A stretch of 64,000 nt of DNA, from positions 202,869 to 266,868 of the forward strand of contig JANQSD010000004.1 in the NCBI GenBank assembly GCA_028284225.1, in the 5' to 3' direction. The notes under the pieces are model-generated. The model ran no database searches. It had not been told where the DNA came from and worked only from the letters and a program-made list of their open reading frames with translations. The position numbers were made by a program, and so were the translations under genes. Within the stretch, counting starts at the first letter, position 1. Every line of letters begins with the position of its first letter. The stretch is from Arenicellales bacterium. Its GTDB lineage: Bacteria; Pseudomonadota; Gammaproteobacteria; Arenicellales; JAHEKD01. This document shows, in pieces, positions 51,433 through 57,288 of the stretch.

Positions 51433-52548
51433 ATGACAGATACAGTTCAAAACTATAAACCGGGCGAACATCCATCTTTACCTCCGCCGTCCAATACGGT
51501 TGGACCCATTGCGTGGATCAGAGAGAATCTGTTTTCGTCTCCGACAAACATTGTACTAACACTAGTATGCGCATGGCTGCTGTACAAAGTTGTTCCTGGC
51601 TCACTAAACTGGATGTTCTTTGATGCAGCATTTACCGGAGAAGACCGTAATGCCTGCAAGGCTGTCGCTGACGGTGCCTGCTGGGCCTTTATCGGTGAAC
51701 GCTTGGCGCTATTTACATACGGCTTTTACCCCGCCGAGCAACGCTGGCGAGTCAACCTTTCGTTTATCCTTTTAATCGCGGCAATCATCCCTGTTCTTTT
51801 CGACAATATTCCATTTAGAAAATACGGATTGATTTATTCAGCACTGTTCCCTTTTATTGCTGGTTGGTTACTGATTGGAGGCTTTGGTTTAGAACCTGTG
51901 CCCACCAGTGAGTTTGGCGGACTAATGTTGACATTAGTAATTGGAGTGACCGGGATAGCATTTTCATTACCGATAGGCATCCTGTTAGCATTGGGGCGTG
52001 TCTCCAATCTGCCCTTAATCAAGATGATTTGTGTCGGCTTCATTGAATTCATTCGTGGCGTACCATTAATCACATTGTTATTTATTGCTTCAACCATGTT
52101 GAGCTATTTTCTACCGCCTGGCACAAACTTCGACTTGCTGCTGCGTGTTTTGATCATGGTTACAATCTTTGCTGCAGCTTATATGGCGGAAGTTATTCGT
52201 GGTGGCTTACAAGCGATTCCTAAAGGCCAATTTGAAGGCGCTGACTCATTAGGCCTAAAGTACTGGCAAACCATGCGCCTGATCATACTCCCGCAAGCAT
52301 TAAAAATTTCCATACCTGGTATTGTTAATACTTTTATTGGTCTTTTTAAAGATACTACGCTTGTCGTAATCATTGGGTTGTTAGACCCGCTGGGCATTGG
52401 TCGAGCATCATTAGCCGATACAAAATGGACCGGGCTTTCTACAGAAGTCTATCTATTCGTAGCATTATTCTTCTTTGTCTCCTGTTTTGCGATGTCAAGA
52501 TATTCGCTATACCTGGAGAGCAAATTAGACACCGGACACAAGAGATAA
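51433..52548 (+). CDS. aapM: General L-amino acid ABC transporter, permease
   Basis: Second permease subunit, 371 aa, forming a heterodimer with AapQ. A long N-terminal segment with TMs (NIVLTLVCAWLLYKVV) leads to the HisMQ core with MAEVIRGGLQAIPKGQFEGA and LGLKYWQTMRLIILPQAL (EAA loop). It is preceded by AGGAGG and followed 12 bp later by aapP. Confidence 0.94.
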   Translation: MTDTVQNYKPGEHPSLPPPSNTVGPIAWIRENLFSSPTNIVLTLVCAWLLYKVVPGSLNWMFFDAAFTGEDRNACKAVADGACWAFIGERLALFTYGFYPAEQRWRVNLSFILLIAAIIPVLFDNIPFRKYGLIYSALFPFIAGWLLIGGFGLEPVPTSEFGGLMLTLVIGVTGIAFSLPIGILLALGRVSNLPLIKMICVGFIEFIRGVPLITLLFIASTMLSYFLPPGTNFDLLLRVLIMVTIFAAAYMAEVIRGGLQAIPKGQFEGADSLGLKYWQTMRLIILPQALKISIPGIVNTFIGLFKDTTLVVIIGLLDPLGIGRASLADTKWTGLSTEVYLFVALFFFVSCFAMSRYSLYLESKLDTGHKR

Positions 52549-52560
52549 GGAACAGACATC

Positions 52561-53346
52561 ATGACTGATCAAGCAGAAACTACCAATCAAACCTCAAATG
52601 CACCAAGTGACGAGATCGTCATTACCATCAAAAATATGCACAAATGGTATGGCGACTTCCATGTGTTGCGTGACATTAACCTGGAAGTTACACGAGGCGA
52701 AAAAATTGTAATTTGCGGGCCTTCCGGCTCAGGCAAATCAACTGTCATTCGTTGTATAAATCGTCTGGAAGAGCATCAGCAAGGCCAGATCATTGTCGAT
52801 GGAATCGAGTTGACTAACGATTTAAAAAATATCGAGCAAGTTCGCCGAGAAGTGGGAATGTGTTTCCAGCATTTCAATCTGTTCCCGCATTTAACAGTGA
52901 TGGAGAACTGTACTTTGGCTCCAATTTGGGTGCGAAAAGTTCCTAAAGCGGAAGCGGAAGCTACGGCGATGGAATATCTCGAACGCGTCAAGATTCCTGA
53001 CCAGGCAAACAAATTTCCCGGTCAACTTTCAGGCGGGCAACAGCAACGTGTTGCTATCGCCAGAAGCTTGTGCATGAAACCTAAAATCATGTTATTCGAT
53101 GAACCGACATCTGCACTTGACCCGGAGATGATCAAGGAGGTCCTGGATACCATGATCCAATTGGCTGATGAAGGCATGACCATGCTTTGCGTGACTCATG
53201 AAATGGGTTTTGCAAAAACCGTTGCCAACCGCGTCATATTCATGGATGCAGGCCAAATTATTGAAGAAAATGAACCGGAGGAATTCTTCAATAATCCGCA
53301 AAGTGATCGTACCCAATTATTCTTAAGCCAGATCTTGGCGCATTAA
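52561..53346 (+). CDS. aapP: General L-amino acid ABC transporter, ATPase
   Basis: ATP-binding subunit, 261 aa, energising AapQM. Walker [10 protein letters not shown], signature LSGGQQQR, Walker [16 protein letters not shown] and the switch histidine in LCVTHEMGF are all present. It is the last gene of aapJQMP and is followed by a strong terminator. Confidence 0.97.
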
Positions 53347-53570: not shown

Positions 53571-53843
53571 CTAAAAATTAACCGGCCTTTCAACATCTAT
53601 ATCATTATCTACGCTCTGAACAGTGAATCCGACTCCAGCCGGAATCATAACTTCTATATAATTTGGCATTGCTGTCAAAGCCGCACATGAACCGGCTCCT
53701 AGAACAGCATCTGGATTGCCAGTTTGGTAAACGACAAATGTCGCTGCACCAAACGGATGACGTCTACGTACACGAATACTGCTATTTCGTGTTGGGCCTG
53801 GAAAAATTATGTGAGCTTGGCCATGTACAATTGTGTGTGGCAT
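53571..53843 (-). CDS. Small hypothetical protein downstream of the subtilase
   Basis: 90 residues, no family recognised. It starts MPHTIVHGQAHIIFPGPTRN, has a basic patch (SSIRVRRRHPFG), and is otherwise rich in beta-prone residues (ATFVVYQTG, YIEVMIPAGVGFTVQSV), ending DIDVERPVNF. There is no signal peptide. A good SD (AGGAG) precedes the ATG. It follows the subtilase and glycine-zipper repeat genes on the same strand, 154 bp after the protease gene, so it may belong to the same unit. Confidence 0.65.
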   Translation of the reverse strand: MPHTIVHGQAHIIFPGPTRNSSIRVRRRHPFGAATFVVYQTGNPDAVLGAGSCAALTAMPNYIEVMIPAGVGFTVQSVDNDIDVERPVNF

Positions 53844-53997
53844 GTTTTTATCTCCTAAAAAATATAAATTATTGGGAACGTTTATCGTGATTAATCAATG
53901 AGCTGATCTTTGAATTAAAGAATTAACTTTCGCTCAAAGACACTTCAATGCTAATTTCATATCGATGAAGTCATCTGTGTTAGGTTGAATCGCTGTT

Positions 53998-55605
53998 CTA
54001 TCCTGTGTTATTCACATGTCCGGCCAAAATACTTTGCATTGCGGGCATACCTGAACCGGTCCGCCCGGGGCCAAAATAAAATGGGATAGATATTCTTCTT
54101 AACAATTCATATAGTGCCGTGACCCGCATTTGATTCTTTTGCACGTAAACTGATCTGAACAATGGATGATGTGCTAATAACAGCCCTGCCAACCCAGTTA
54201 CATGCGGCGCGGCCATCGATGTACCGCTGTCTGGAAAATACGTGTTATCAGGTCCGGTAGAAACAATCGCTACACCCGGGGCAGTAACATCAATCTGAGG
54301 TCCGAAACAACTAAATTGCGGAAAGAACAAACCGTTGTTCAGCGTCAGCTGAGATGTGACTTGAGTGCTATCCCAGGTATCTGCTTGTACTTCACGAACG
54401 TCACCTATAGCCGACACCGCTAAAGTAGTTGGCAGATTTGCCGGAAATTGCACTTCACCGCCGCTATTGCCGGCAGATACTATGACACCGATACCATTAA
54501 GTATCGCCTCTTCGATTTTCTGCGCTACAATTGGTGACTCTACTTTTGTTCCCAGACTCATATTGACAACATCGATTCGCTCATTGATACAGATGTCTAT
54601 AGCCCGGACTAAAGAGGATGTTGTCCCGCCCGGAAACACTTTTAGAATCAGGATTTCTGCTTCTGGACAAAAGCCGGACAATTCATCTCCGTCTCCGTTA
54701 GCTGTAATGACGCCTGCGACGTGCGTACCGTGACCTTCCTGATCATTTCTCCAGTCATTACGTTCACCTATATCACTTAAGTTAGAACCTGATTTAACGT
54801 GTGACAATAGTCGATGTTCCCCCAGACCGGTGTCGACAATGGCGATTTTTACACCCGTGCCAGTATAGAGTTTTTCATCATTTCCCAAACCCATTAACTT
54901 TTCACCCCAACCGTGTTGGAAGCCGACCGGAAAATTTGGAATGGTTTCACTTAAGGAATTAAGACGAATAATGTTTTGAGCCGTTGTAGCCAAATCAGGG
55001 TTTTTAAGATAAAAATCCCAGTAGCCGGTTTTTGCTTTAGCGAAGATAGATTCAATCTGTGTATTTGCAAGTATAGCCAACTCGATAAATGCCTCTCCTT
55101 TATCATTCGAAGTCTGCATGCCTTTACTGTGACTGGACTGAATAACAATGTCGACATTCGATAAAGGTTGATTTTCTTCACCAAGAATGAGGAAGGAATA
55201 TGTTTGTATTTCCTCGATGGGTTTAAATGCGAGACCTCGGGATGGCACTCGGTTTTTAATGGAACTTGTATCTAAAAATTCGAGACGCTGTTCTTCTTCA
55301 ATTAATACATGGCCAGGTGAATTGGCCTTGAGCTCTTTATGATCACTATCGGACATCTCCACAATGTGAATTTCCTGAGCTTCATTATCTTGAATCGATT
55401 GTGGTGAAAACCCGCTGCTCTGCCCTATTGTTTTACATATTTTAATGTTGGGAAATTTCGCAAGATGCGTTTTTAATTCAAAAGAGAGCATTGGCTTCAT
55501 GCCGGACTGCACTGCAAGCGTACCGCGTTTTGAAGCAACCAAGTAACGTTTTTTATTGGTTTTATCTGCTGAAATCTTATGTTGTTTATCAGTATTTTCG
55601 TTCAT
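53998..55605 (-). CDS. Subtilisin-family (S8) serine protease without signal peptide
   Basis: 535 residues. The catalytic triad is Asp258 (IAIVDTGLG), His292 (GHGTHVAGV) and Ser463 (GTSMAAPHVTG), with oxyanion Asn380 (SAGNSG). About 240 residues precede the protease domain: a basic start, an acidic stretch, and a beta-rich segment (SFLILGEENQPLSNVDIVI, about 137-155) resembling carboxypeptidase-regulatory-like folds. There is no signal sequence, so it is either cytoplasmic or exported by an unseen route. It lies between the repeat protein and a small unknown protein on the same strand, and may process one of them; that is inference. Confidence 0.88.
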   Translation of the reverse strand: MNENTDKQHKISADKTNKKRYLVASKRGTLAVQSGMKPMLSFELKTHLAKFPNIKICKTIGQSSGFSPQSIQDNEAQEIHIVEMSDSDHKELKANSPGHVLIEEEQRLEFLDTSSIKNRVPSRGLAFKPIEEIQTYSFLILGEENQPLSNVDIVIQSSHSKGMQTSNDKGEAFIELAILANTQIESIFAKAKTGYWDFYLKNPDLATTAQNIIRLNSLSETIPNFPVGFQHGWGEKLMGLGNDEKLYTGTGVKIAIVDTGLGEHRLLSHVKSGSNLSDIGERNDWRNDQEGHGTHVAGVITANGDGDELSGFCPEAEILILKVFPGGTTSSLVRAIDICINERIDVVNMSLGTKVESPIVAQKIEEAILNGIGVIVSAGNSGGEVQFPANLPTTLAVSAIGDVREVQADTWDSTQVTSQLTLNNGLFFPQFSCFGPQIDVTAPGVAIVSTGPDNTYFPDSGTSMAAPHVTGLAGLLLAHHPLFRSVYVQKNQMRVTALYELLRRISIPFYFGPGRTGSGMPAMQSILAGHVNNTG

Positions 55606-55762
55606 TATTTTTTACCTTTTAGAGAGTTACTGTGACATGACCACTATCAGCAGAAACTAATAGTGGCCACGTACTCTATTTGCGACTTAAATCACTGTAT
55701 AGCGTTGGAAATGTAGGAAGATTTGGAGATGTAACAGGAGTAAGCCACAGAGATAGTCCACC

Positions 55763-56728
55763 TTATGCTGGATACCGCATTGGACCGGCACTAAATGGCA
55801 ACAAAGGGGCAAGCGTGCCTGCCGCCTGACCGACAGCCGTACCAAGAGCTGGGTGTCCTAATTGCTTGCCGACAAAGCCGCCAACGGTAGGTGCGACAGA
55901 ACCAATGAAGTCACCTATCGCACCTTGCGGGGCATACTGTGGACCGGCGCTAAATGGTAACAAAGGAGCAAGCGTGCCTGCCGCCTGGCCGACAGCCGTA
56001 CCAAGAGCGGGGTGTCCTAATTGCTTGCCGACAAAACTGCCAACAGTAGGTGCAACAGAACCAATAAAGTCACCTACCGCACCTTGCGGAGCATACTGTG
56101 GACCGGCGCTAAATGGCAGCAAAGGAGCAAGCGTGCCTGCCGCCTGGCCGACAGCCGTACCAAGGGCTGGGTGTCCTAATTGCTTGCCGACAAAACTACC
56201 AACAGTAGGTGCAACAGAACCAATAAAGTCGCCGACTGCTCCTTGAGGGGCGTATTGTGGACCAGCACTGAATGGTAATAATTTAGCTGCTTGTCCCACT
56301 GCACCACCGATAGCACTGCCTGCCGCAGTTCCAGCTCCGGGAGCCACCAAACTACCGACTATACCGCCGGCAACAGGCGCCACAGCACCTAAAATGTCAC
56401 CAAAGACACCTTGTGGTGCATATGTATGCGGATCCATAGCTAAAGCAGGGGTGGCGTATTGTGGACCGGCACTGAACGGCAGTAATTTAGCAGCCTGTCC
56501 CACCGCACCGCCGATGGCACTACCTGCCGCAGTTCCAGCCCCGGGAGCCACCAAGCTACCGACTATACCGCCAGCAACAGGTGCCACAGCACCTAAAATG
56601 TCACCAAAGACACCTTGTGGTGCGTATGTATGTGGATCTGCACCTAGAGGGGGCGTTGCATACGGTAATCCGGTTTCTGGACTCGGAAAGCAGCCGGTGG
56701 GGATATGTGGTTGAGTTTGTAAGTACAT
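55763..56728 (-). CDS. Tandem-repeat glycine-zipper protein, possible multi-peptide precursor
   Basis: 321 residues, unknown function. After a 30-residue leader-like start (MYLQTQPHIPTGCFPSPETG), two copies of a 68-residue unit and three of a 53-residue unit follow. Each begins APQG(V/A)(F/V)GD and ends LLPFSAGPQY. Long units span residues 31-98 and 99-159, and are identical over 61 residues. Short units span 160-212 and 213-265 (identical) and 266-316 (two changes). Each unit has a GxxxG-rich hydrophobic stretch (e.g. GGIVGSLVAPGAGTAAG) able to pair in or on membranes. I use ATG 56728 with GGAG six bases before; a TTG at 56740 lies within that SD. A subtilase gene follows 157 bp later. It could be processed into several peptides, or be a structural membrane-active repeat protein. 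Confidence 0.75.
   Translation of the reverse strand: MYLQTQPHIPTGCFPSPETGLPYATPPLGADPHTYAPQGVFGDILGAVAPVAGGIVGSLVAPGAGTAAGSAIGGAVGQAAKLLPFSAGPQYATPALAMDPHTYAPQGVFGDILGAVAPVAGGIVGSLVAPGAGTAAGSAIGGAVGQAAKLLPFSAGPQYAPQGAVGDFIGSVAPTVGSFVGKQLGHPALGTAVGQAAGTLAPLLPFSAGPQYAPQGAVGDFIGSVAPTVGSFVGKQLGHPALGTAVGQAAGTLAPLLPFSAGPQYAPQGAIGDFIGSVAPTVGGFVGKQLGHPALGTAVGQAAGTLAPLLPFSAGPMRYPA
55781..56638. repeat. DNA tandem repeats encoding the glycine-zipper units
   Basis: Two 204/183-bp units (56435-56638, 56252-56434) and three of 159/153 bp (56093-56251, 55934-56092, 55781-55933). The copies differ mostly at third codon positions while the proteins are nearly unchanged, so protein sequence is conserved by selection or by conversion. 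Confidence 0.9.
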
Positions 56729-56937
56729 ATTTTTCTCCAATTATAATAAGTTGATTTTGTAATTAAGCACCAAAGTACATTGTGCATTTTTAATTTCAGT
56801 GTGATCCCAACTTCAATTAATCCGTTTTGATCACAACCTATTCTCATCTCAGCAGCAGCACAATGGCAATTGAAACAGCGTGTGTACTATTCAACACATT
56901 CTTTATTAGCCGTGTGTAATACAACTCATGAAGATTA

Positions 56938-57288
56938 TTAGTGTCTCAGGTGAGGATATAGTTTTCTGATTAAATTAATGATTAGCACGGCAGTCTCCGG
57001 CTCGAGTTGCCTGAGCAAAAAAATGATTTCCTGCTCAGTATCATTTGCATAGAAATTTTTATGTTGGTGAATACTACCTCTTCCGAGTACAACCCAGTCC
57101 AGTGATATATCCAAGGCTGAACAGAGGTTTCCCGCGTTTTTGATAGAAATGTTCCCGTTCGTCCTCCATCGGCTAATAGCACTGTCATCCACGCCAAGTT
57201 CCAGTGCGAGAGCAGACAATTTTTTCACCCTTGAATATTGCAGCGCATACTCAATACGTTTTCCTATATCCTGATTTTTGTTTTTCAT
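56938..57288 (-). CDS. XRE/CI-type HTH regulator
   Basis: 116 residues with an N-terminal helix-turn-helix like phage CI and XRE proteins (ALALELGVDDSAISRWRTNG, LCSALDISLDWVVLGRG). The C-terminal tail (FLLRQLEPETAVLIINLIRKLYP) may mediate oligomerisation. It is 209 bp upstream of the repeat protein gene on the same strand and probably regulates that locus. The gap contains TGTGATC-N22-GATCACA near 56798-56833, a possible binding site. Confidence 0.82.
   Translation of the reverse strand: MKNKNQDIGKRIEYALQYSRVKKLSALALELGVDDSAISRWRTNGNISIKNAGNLCSALDISLDWVVLGRGSIHQHKNFYANDTEQEIIFLLRQLEPETAVLIINLIRKLYPHLRH

Follow-up and report, generated by a model that had tools for sequence, protein, structure and literature searches.

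We found that a subtilisin-family (S8) protease without a signal peptide and a protein built of tandem glycine-zipper repeats are encoded by a conserved gene pair in gamma- and alphaproteobacteria. The pair was recognized in a 64,000-nucleotide stretch of an Arenicellales genome (GCA_028284225.1, contig JANQSD010000004.1, positions 202,869 to 266,868 of the forward strand), hereafter called the window. Although conserved, the gene pair is undescribed, and divergent relatives of the protease are found in Streptomyces. Quite possibly, if tentatively, the two proteins form a dedicated processing pair in which the subtilase would cut the repeat protein after each Leu-Pro-Phe (LPF) and release neutral two-helix peptides. 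An earlier reading of the nucleotide sequence alone (the sequence-only reading) had described four open reading frames (ORFs), for an XRE regulator, the repeat protein, the subtilase, and a 90-amino-acid protein. All four were found where it had placed them, on the minus strand (Table 1).

Searches with the single repeat-protein sequence gave only weak spurious matches, both in the order (109 genomes) and in the class (369 genomes), and searches of plasmids, phages and viruses gave no match. A scan of 84,980 genomes with an alignment of units recovered two relatives, in Marinibactrum halimedae and in a Sneathiella metagenome-assembled genome. This alignment included invented variants to broaden the pattern, and the matches were then checked on the real sequence. 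The Marinibactrum locus (L014) has the XRE, repeat-protein and subtilase genes in the same order as the window. The subtilases are 53% identical (521 amino acids), the XRE proteins are 41% identical, and the Marinibactrum repeat protein has 11 units, most of them shortened to 36 residues. In Sneathiella (L015:5993-7108) the contig ends inside the repeat gene, with the downstream neighbor beyond it. A second profile, made from the real units of the window, Marinibactrum and Sneathiella genomes, found the repeat in further genomes. In a 399-genome sample of the phylum, a subtilase gene was adjacent in all genomes with strong repeat matches (4/4). A subtilase relative lies downstream of the repeat gene on the same strand in G750, from a family labeled f202, and in G791 and G821, from a genus labeled g392. 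We infer from an EarP-like neighbor that f202 is Burkholderiaceae; g392 is read as an alphaproteobacterial genus, partly from kinship. A glycine-rich protein in genome G281 (L005) was dropped as a candidate; it sits among peptidoglycan-binding-like proteins, with no subtilase.

The two genes are tightly linked in f202. A subtilase relative was present in 14 of 79 genomes and the repeat in 12 of 79, all 12 within the 14. In each of these 12 genomes (12/12, from 8 genera) the repeat gene precedes the subtilase gene on the same strand, with at most one small gene between. The other two subtilase carriers have diverged PQG-containing neighbors. Chance adjacency was rejected by this co-occurrence (Fisher p = 1.8e-12, a figure whose true value is made weaker by the relatedness of the genomes). 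The sequence-only reading had made its proposal depend on an association between repeat protein and subtilase in other genomes, and that association was found in Marinibactrum, in f202, and in g392. Its suggestion that related repeat proteins may exist in other bacteria was borne out in the same groups and in Sneathiella. The idea of a four-gene unit did not hold up: the 90-amino-acid protein has no relative in any genome searched and is absent at the Marinibactrum locus, and the XRE gene is common only to the window and Marinibactrum. At g392 loci of one clade (clade A), a BTAD activator gene is upstream in place of XRE.

The units of the repeat protein are under purifying selection at the protein level. 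Tandem Repeats Finder reported a 159-bp repeat in 3.1 copies and a 204-bp repeat in 1.9, corresponding to three units of 53 residues and two of 68, in full agreement with the sequence-only reading of this 321-residue protein. There are 13 codon differences between unit 1 and unit 2 and 10 between unit 3 and unit 4, all of them synonymous (13/13, p about 7e-8; 10/10, p about 3e-6), compared with an expectation that 72% of random changes are non-synonymous. Codons have thus drifted while the protein sequence was kept, as had been noted. Because all differences are synonymous, the repeats must be old enough for drift, with the amino acid sequence of each unit held by selection, and a recent unselected duplication is ruled out. 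The APQG starts and LLPFSAGPQY ends described earlier are both present. They are edges rather than linkers, with PQG opening and LPFSAGP closing the conserved module. Across relatives the unit consensus is PQG..G..........G...IG...G....G...IG..AG.....LPF, predicted with low confidence as two helices. Unit length varies from 33 to 53 residues, and linkers range from three residues to long Gln-rich stretches. The window and Marinibactrum proteins have almost no linker and no C-terminal His tail.

The end of the unit contains a candidate cleavage site. All of the units counted (55/55) close with [LMFIVY][LI]PF and then a Ser, Gly, Asn or Ala residue, three of the window units being counted with their true end, LLPFSAGP, and PF at the unit ends is kept while the linkers vary freely between species. 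Pro-Phe at P2-P1 with a small residue after it is a textbook subtilisin site, as in the substrate Ala-Ala-Pro-Phe, and the LPF unit end is for this reason a candidate classical subtilisin site. The sequence-only reading had placed the cuts at the APQ/GPQY linkers. These linkers are free to vary between species; conservation among the candidate sites is highest at LPF with Ser, Gly or Asn after it, inside the unit end. The protein is a tandem series of near-identical cores with a candidate protease site recurring between them, the arrangement looked for in multi-core precursors of ribosomally synthesized and post-translationally modified peptides (RiPPs).

The subtilase has the features of an S8 protease: a PF00082 match at residues 249-486 (1.3e-39), the residues D258, H292 and S463, and the oxyanion Asn N380. 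The catalytic triad is intact in every proteobacterial family member that we aligned. No signal peptide was seen by eye, and the N-terminus, MNENTDKQHKISADKTNKKRYLVASK, is hydrophilic, in agreement with the earlier description of a leaderless enzyme. Pfam, NCBIfam and PADLOC gave only generic S8 matches. Matches to specific NCBIfam models were below their equivalog or subfamily cut-offs for PatA (50.7 vs 421 bits) and QhpE (74.2 vs 165 bits), and below the cut-off for the mycosin of the type VII secretion system (118 vs 279 bits), and no gene of that secretion system was recognized in the ORFs around the locus. The match to IetS of the IetAS anti-phage system was local only (22.7 bits), and the ATPase gene is absent within the locus. 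A structure search with a two-sequence model recovered only the known S8 fold. Residues 19-104 were modeled by AlphaFold2 with the beta-alpha-beta-beta-alpha-beta layout of a subtilisin propeptide (predicted local distance difference test score, pLDDT, about 50-80; the rest of the model was poor).

A small protein probably acts on the subtilase at many of these loci. Most f202 and g392 clade-A loci encode a protein of 76-93 residues between the repeat gene and the subtilase gene. This stand-alone protein is homologous to the subtilase N-terminal domain (hhalign 98%, E=1.5e-13), and its profile also matches that domain in many family members. There was no Pfam match, and the small protein has no entry in NCBIfam or PADLOC either. 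The domain is predicted to have a propeptide layout, but no sequence similarity to I9 propeptides was found. Judging from the homology and the layout, the stand-alone protein is probably a second inhibitor of the subtilase, or a chaperone.

In the mechanism that we propose, the subtilase would be made without an export signal and would carry its own N-terminal propeptide-like domain. Where a stand-alone copy of that domain is encoded, the copy would hold the subtilase in check. Once active, the enzyme would cut the repeat protein after each [hydrophobic]-L-P-F, before Ser, Gly or Asn. One chain would yield several near-identical glycine-zipper peptides of two helices and no net charge, each about 53-68 residues long, and these could pack against each other or enter membranes. 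We judge processing to be the most likely explanation because of the tight linkage, the subtilisin-type site in each unit, the intact triad, and the probable inhibitor. A fuller version, in which a cytoplasmic subtilase restrained by a free propeptide-like domain makes a self-assembling membrane-active peptide from a polyprotein, as a widespread and undescribed switchable device for cell death or antagonism, is unlikely as a whole.

No catalogued system fits this combination (Pfam, NCBIfam, PADLOC and the literature), and the sequence-only reading had likewise named none. A literature search, in which subscription journals were thinly covered, found no description of a subtilase/repeat-protein system. 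Cyanobactin precursors have multi-copy cores. S8 proteases of RiPP maturation (PatA/PatG, ElxP, AmyP) cut precursors at motif-defined sites, and some are cytoplasmic (PMC10885120). RiPP systems have short cores, whereas the window units are on the 50-residue scale; no modifying enzyme was seen adjoining the window locus, and no tailoring enzyme or dedicated exporter was recognized from the XRE gene through to the gene of the 90-amino-acid protein, or in the Marinibactrum locus. The fungal S8 protease HET-Q2 and the pore-former HET-Q1, which it activates by cutting after a Phe, are often encoded side by side (PMC10989679). The likeness lies in a cytoplasmic S8 protease, an adjacent target gene and a Phe site. 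However, HET-Q1 is a gasdermin that loses a C-terminal tail, and the protein here is a tandem glycine-zipper protein with no gasdermin match in Pfam or PADLOC. Myxococcus PopC is subtilisin-like, lacks a signal peptide, and is held by its partner protein PopD (PMC6434023). It resembles the window enzyme as a leaderless subtilase of similar size, but its substrate is the CsgA protein p25, with no tandem repeat partner described; PopC/PopD was set apart by description. The HET-Q and PopC parallels are analogies, not membership. I9 propeptides and stand-alone I9 inhibitors are similar in that a small domain, here with a predicted beta-alpha-beta-beta-alpha-beta layout, precedes S8 and a free copy lies beside it. 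Bacteriocin-like and glycine-zipper pore-forming peptides share GxxxG-rich hydrophobic units (33-54 residues), but the units here are net neutral. Bacteriocin models gave no match, and no leader or immunity gene was recognized. The repeat protein and the 90-amino-acid protein belong to no family in Pfam, NCBIfam or PADLOC; the only match of the repeat protein was a 20-residue PHROG with no assigned function.

Neighbors in g392 clade B and Streptomyces show that the protease family is not tied to one kind of repetitive partner. In clade B (L058, L059, L061 and partly L060) the Gln-rich neighbor has three units like RQLSQQDVNEVVRQLLPIVPQIIGMLQ, a second protein ends in SIH or SVH in 3/4 loci, and an M48-like protease gene is further upstream. 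Two Streptomyces plasmids (L008:8025-9611, L009:7824-9602) encode full-length subtilase relatives beside a Gln-rich protein starting MSVYTPQQ. After a single PQG unit, a g392 partner continues with at least 6 copies of another amphipathic unit, MELQSFWSVLKKIGQGVQTGVNIGHQLGVFSAGQPG, that is unrelated to the first; this g392 repeat (MELQSFWSVLKKIGQG...GVFSAGQPG) has only its F-S-A-G end in common with the PQG unit. Of 25 partner proteins listed, 22 have a hydrophobic residue and then His at the C-terminus, compared with few of about 375 other ORFs; the list takes in the window, Marinibactrum and one L090 protein, all three without the His end. The f202 and g392 tails, which cannot be aligned, finish alike, their last residues being T-[LVMI]-H or similar, and this looks like a docking or recognition signal. 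In genome G311 (L013:6551-7483), the subtilase relative is preceded by a protein whose N-terminal half is acidic and whose C-terminal half is strongly basic and peptide-like; a second acidic protein also precedes it.

Several observations weigh against processing. Clade B pairs the subtilase with Gln-rich proteins that have no PQG-LPF units. In both Streptomyces relatives the catalytic Ser is replaced by Thr or Ala (GTT and GTA in place of GTS) and the oxyanion Asn by Asp; in these apparent pseudoproteases the domain would only be able to bind, and this branch of the family is probably not an enzyme. The f202 locus L036, outside the 55-unit count, has one unit ending in LPF and one in LPL, and LPF could instead be the structural end of the unit. 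The window and Marinibactrum have no stand-alone small protein, and hhalign gave only 0.3-0.4% for the N-terminal domain against four I9 sequences, with no profile similarity. The units are net neutral and most are only moderately hydrophobic; with regard to membrane activity, hydrophobicity typical of a membrane helix is reached by the 68-residue unit type alone. The main rival is that the repeat protein is a self-assembling scaffold (a condensate, fiber or granule coat) that binds, places or is remodeled by the subtilase and is not a peptide precursor. Repetition would supply valency, linkers rich in Gln, Gly and Pro would make the chain flexible, and the conserved tail at the C-terminus would serve as a docking signal. 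Low-complexity Gln-rich linkers in nearly all f202 partners, the [LIVM]His ends, the repetitive neighbor retained by the catalytically dead Streptomyces members, and the low-confidence two-helix units are consistent with this. It does not account well for PF kept at the end of all 55 units counted while linkers vary freely, for the window and Marinibactrum proteins with almost no linker and no His tail, or for the intact triad of the proteobacterial members aligned, and we regard a scaffold as rather unlikely, if worth serious consideration.

Protease-gated cell death or antagonism would be a special case of processing, in which a trigger such as phage or competitor damage would lead to release of membrane-permeabilizing peptides, as with gasdermins. 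The glycine-zipper cores would suit such a role, the S8 family and gene adjacency are as in HET-Q1/HET-Q2, the distribution is patchy (10/41 and 14/79 genomes), and the locus itself has an XRE regulator and no exporter gene. We nevertheless think it improbable, given that PADLOC had no match for the partner, that several f202 loci share one common housekeeping neighborhood rather than a defense island, and that the neutral units are not clearly membrane-spanning. Alternatively, the repeat protein might be a multivalent decoy or reservoir substrate that occupies or titrates the subtilase, as many copies of one cleavable-looking site and an inhibitor-like protein in the same gene cluster might suggest. 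The site alone would suffice for a decoy, but conservation between gamma- and alphaproteobacteria extends over the entire glycine-zipper core, and we consider a decoy very unlikely.

Processing after LPF predicts a specific substrate and cut site for a class of leaderless subtilases and, alongside, a free copy of the protease N-terminal domain as the probable inhibitor. If cleavage occurs, this would be a bacterial polyprotein from which many copies of a single peptide are made, and would offer an easy way into the role of leaderless subtilases.

Table 1. Features of the locus, with positions in the window.
Feature	Position	Strand	Evidence and remarks
XRE-family regulator, 116 aa	56938..57288	(-)	HTH_3 8.9e-7; CI-like matches; 41% identity to L014:7367-7711
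Glycine-zipper protein of 321 aa with five tandem units, PQG...LPFSAGP	55763..56728	(-)	Start ATG after GGAG; Tandem Repeats Finder
Unit 1, 68-residue type, APQG to LLPFSAGP	56462..56623	(-)	
Unit 2, 68-residue type	56258..56419	(-)	13 codon differences vs unit 1, all synonymous
Unit 3, 53-residue type	56099..56251	(-)	
Unit 4, 53-residue type	55940..56092	(-)	10 codon differences vs unit 3, all synonymous
Unit 5, 53-residue type	55781..55933	(-)	
Leaderless subtilase (S8), 535 aa	53998..55605	(-)	Peptidase_S8 E=1.3e-39; 53% identity to L014 subtilase over 521 aa
N-terminal domain of the subtilase (residues 19-104), propeptide-like, predicted beta-alpha-beta-beta-alpha-beta	55294..55551	(-)	AlphaFold2, pLDDT about 50-80; homology to stand-alone small protein elsewhere
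Subtilase catalytic domain, residues 249-486, triad D258, H292, S463	54148..54861	(-)	
90-aa protein, no family; adjoins locus, not conserved with it	53571..53843	(-)	Absent from L014

The 90-amino-acid protein has no relative in any genome or collection searched, the Marinibactrum locus included. It was considered as a relative of the stand-alone small protein and rejected on comparison, the two being unrelated. Its gene has a good ribosome binding site and is apparently an orphan. Between the XRE and repeat genes there is an inverted repeat, TGTGATC...GATCACA (56795-56840), a possible operator; none was seen at the corresponding place in Marinibactrum. The ABC genes at 51433-53346 are read as an amino-acid importer.

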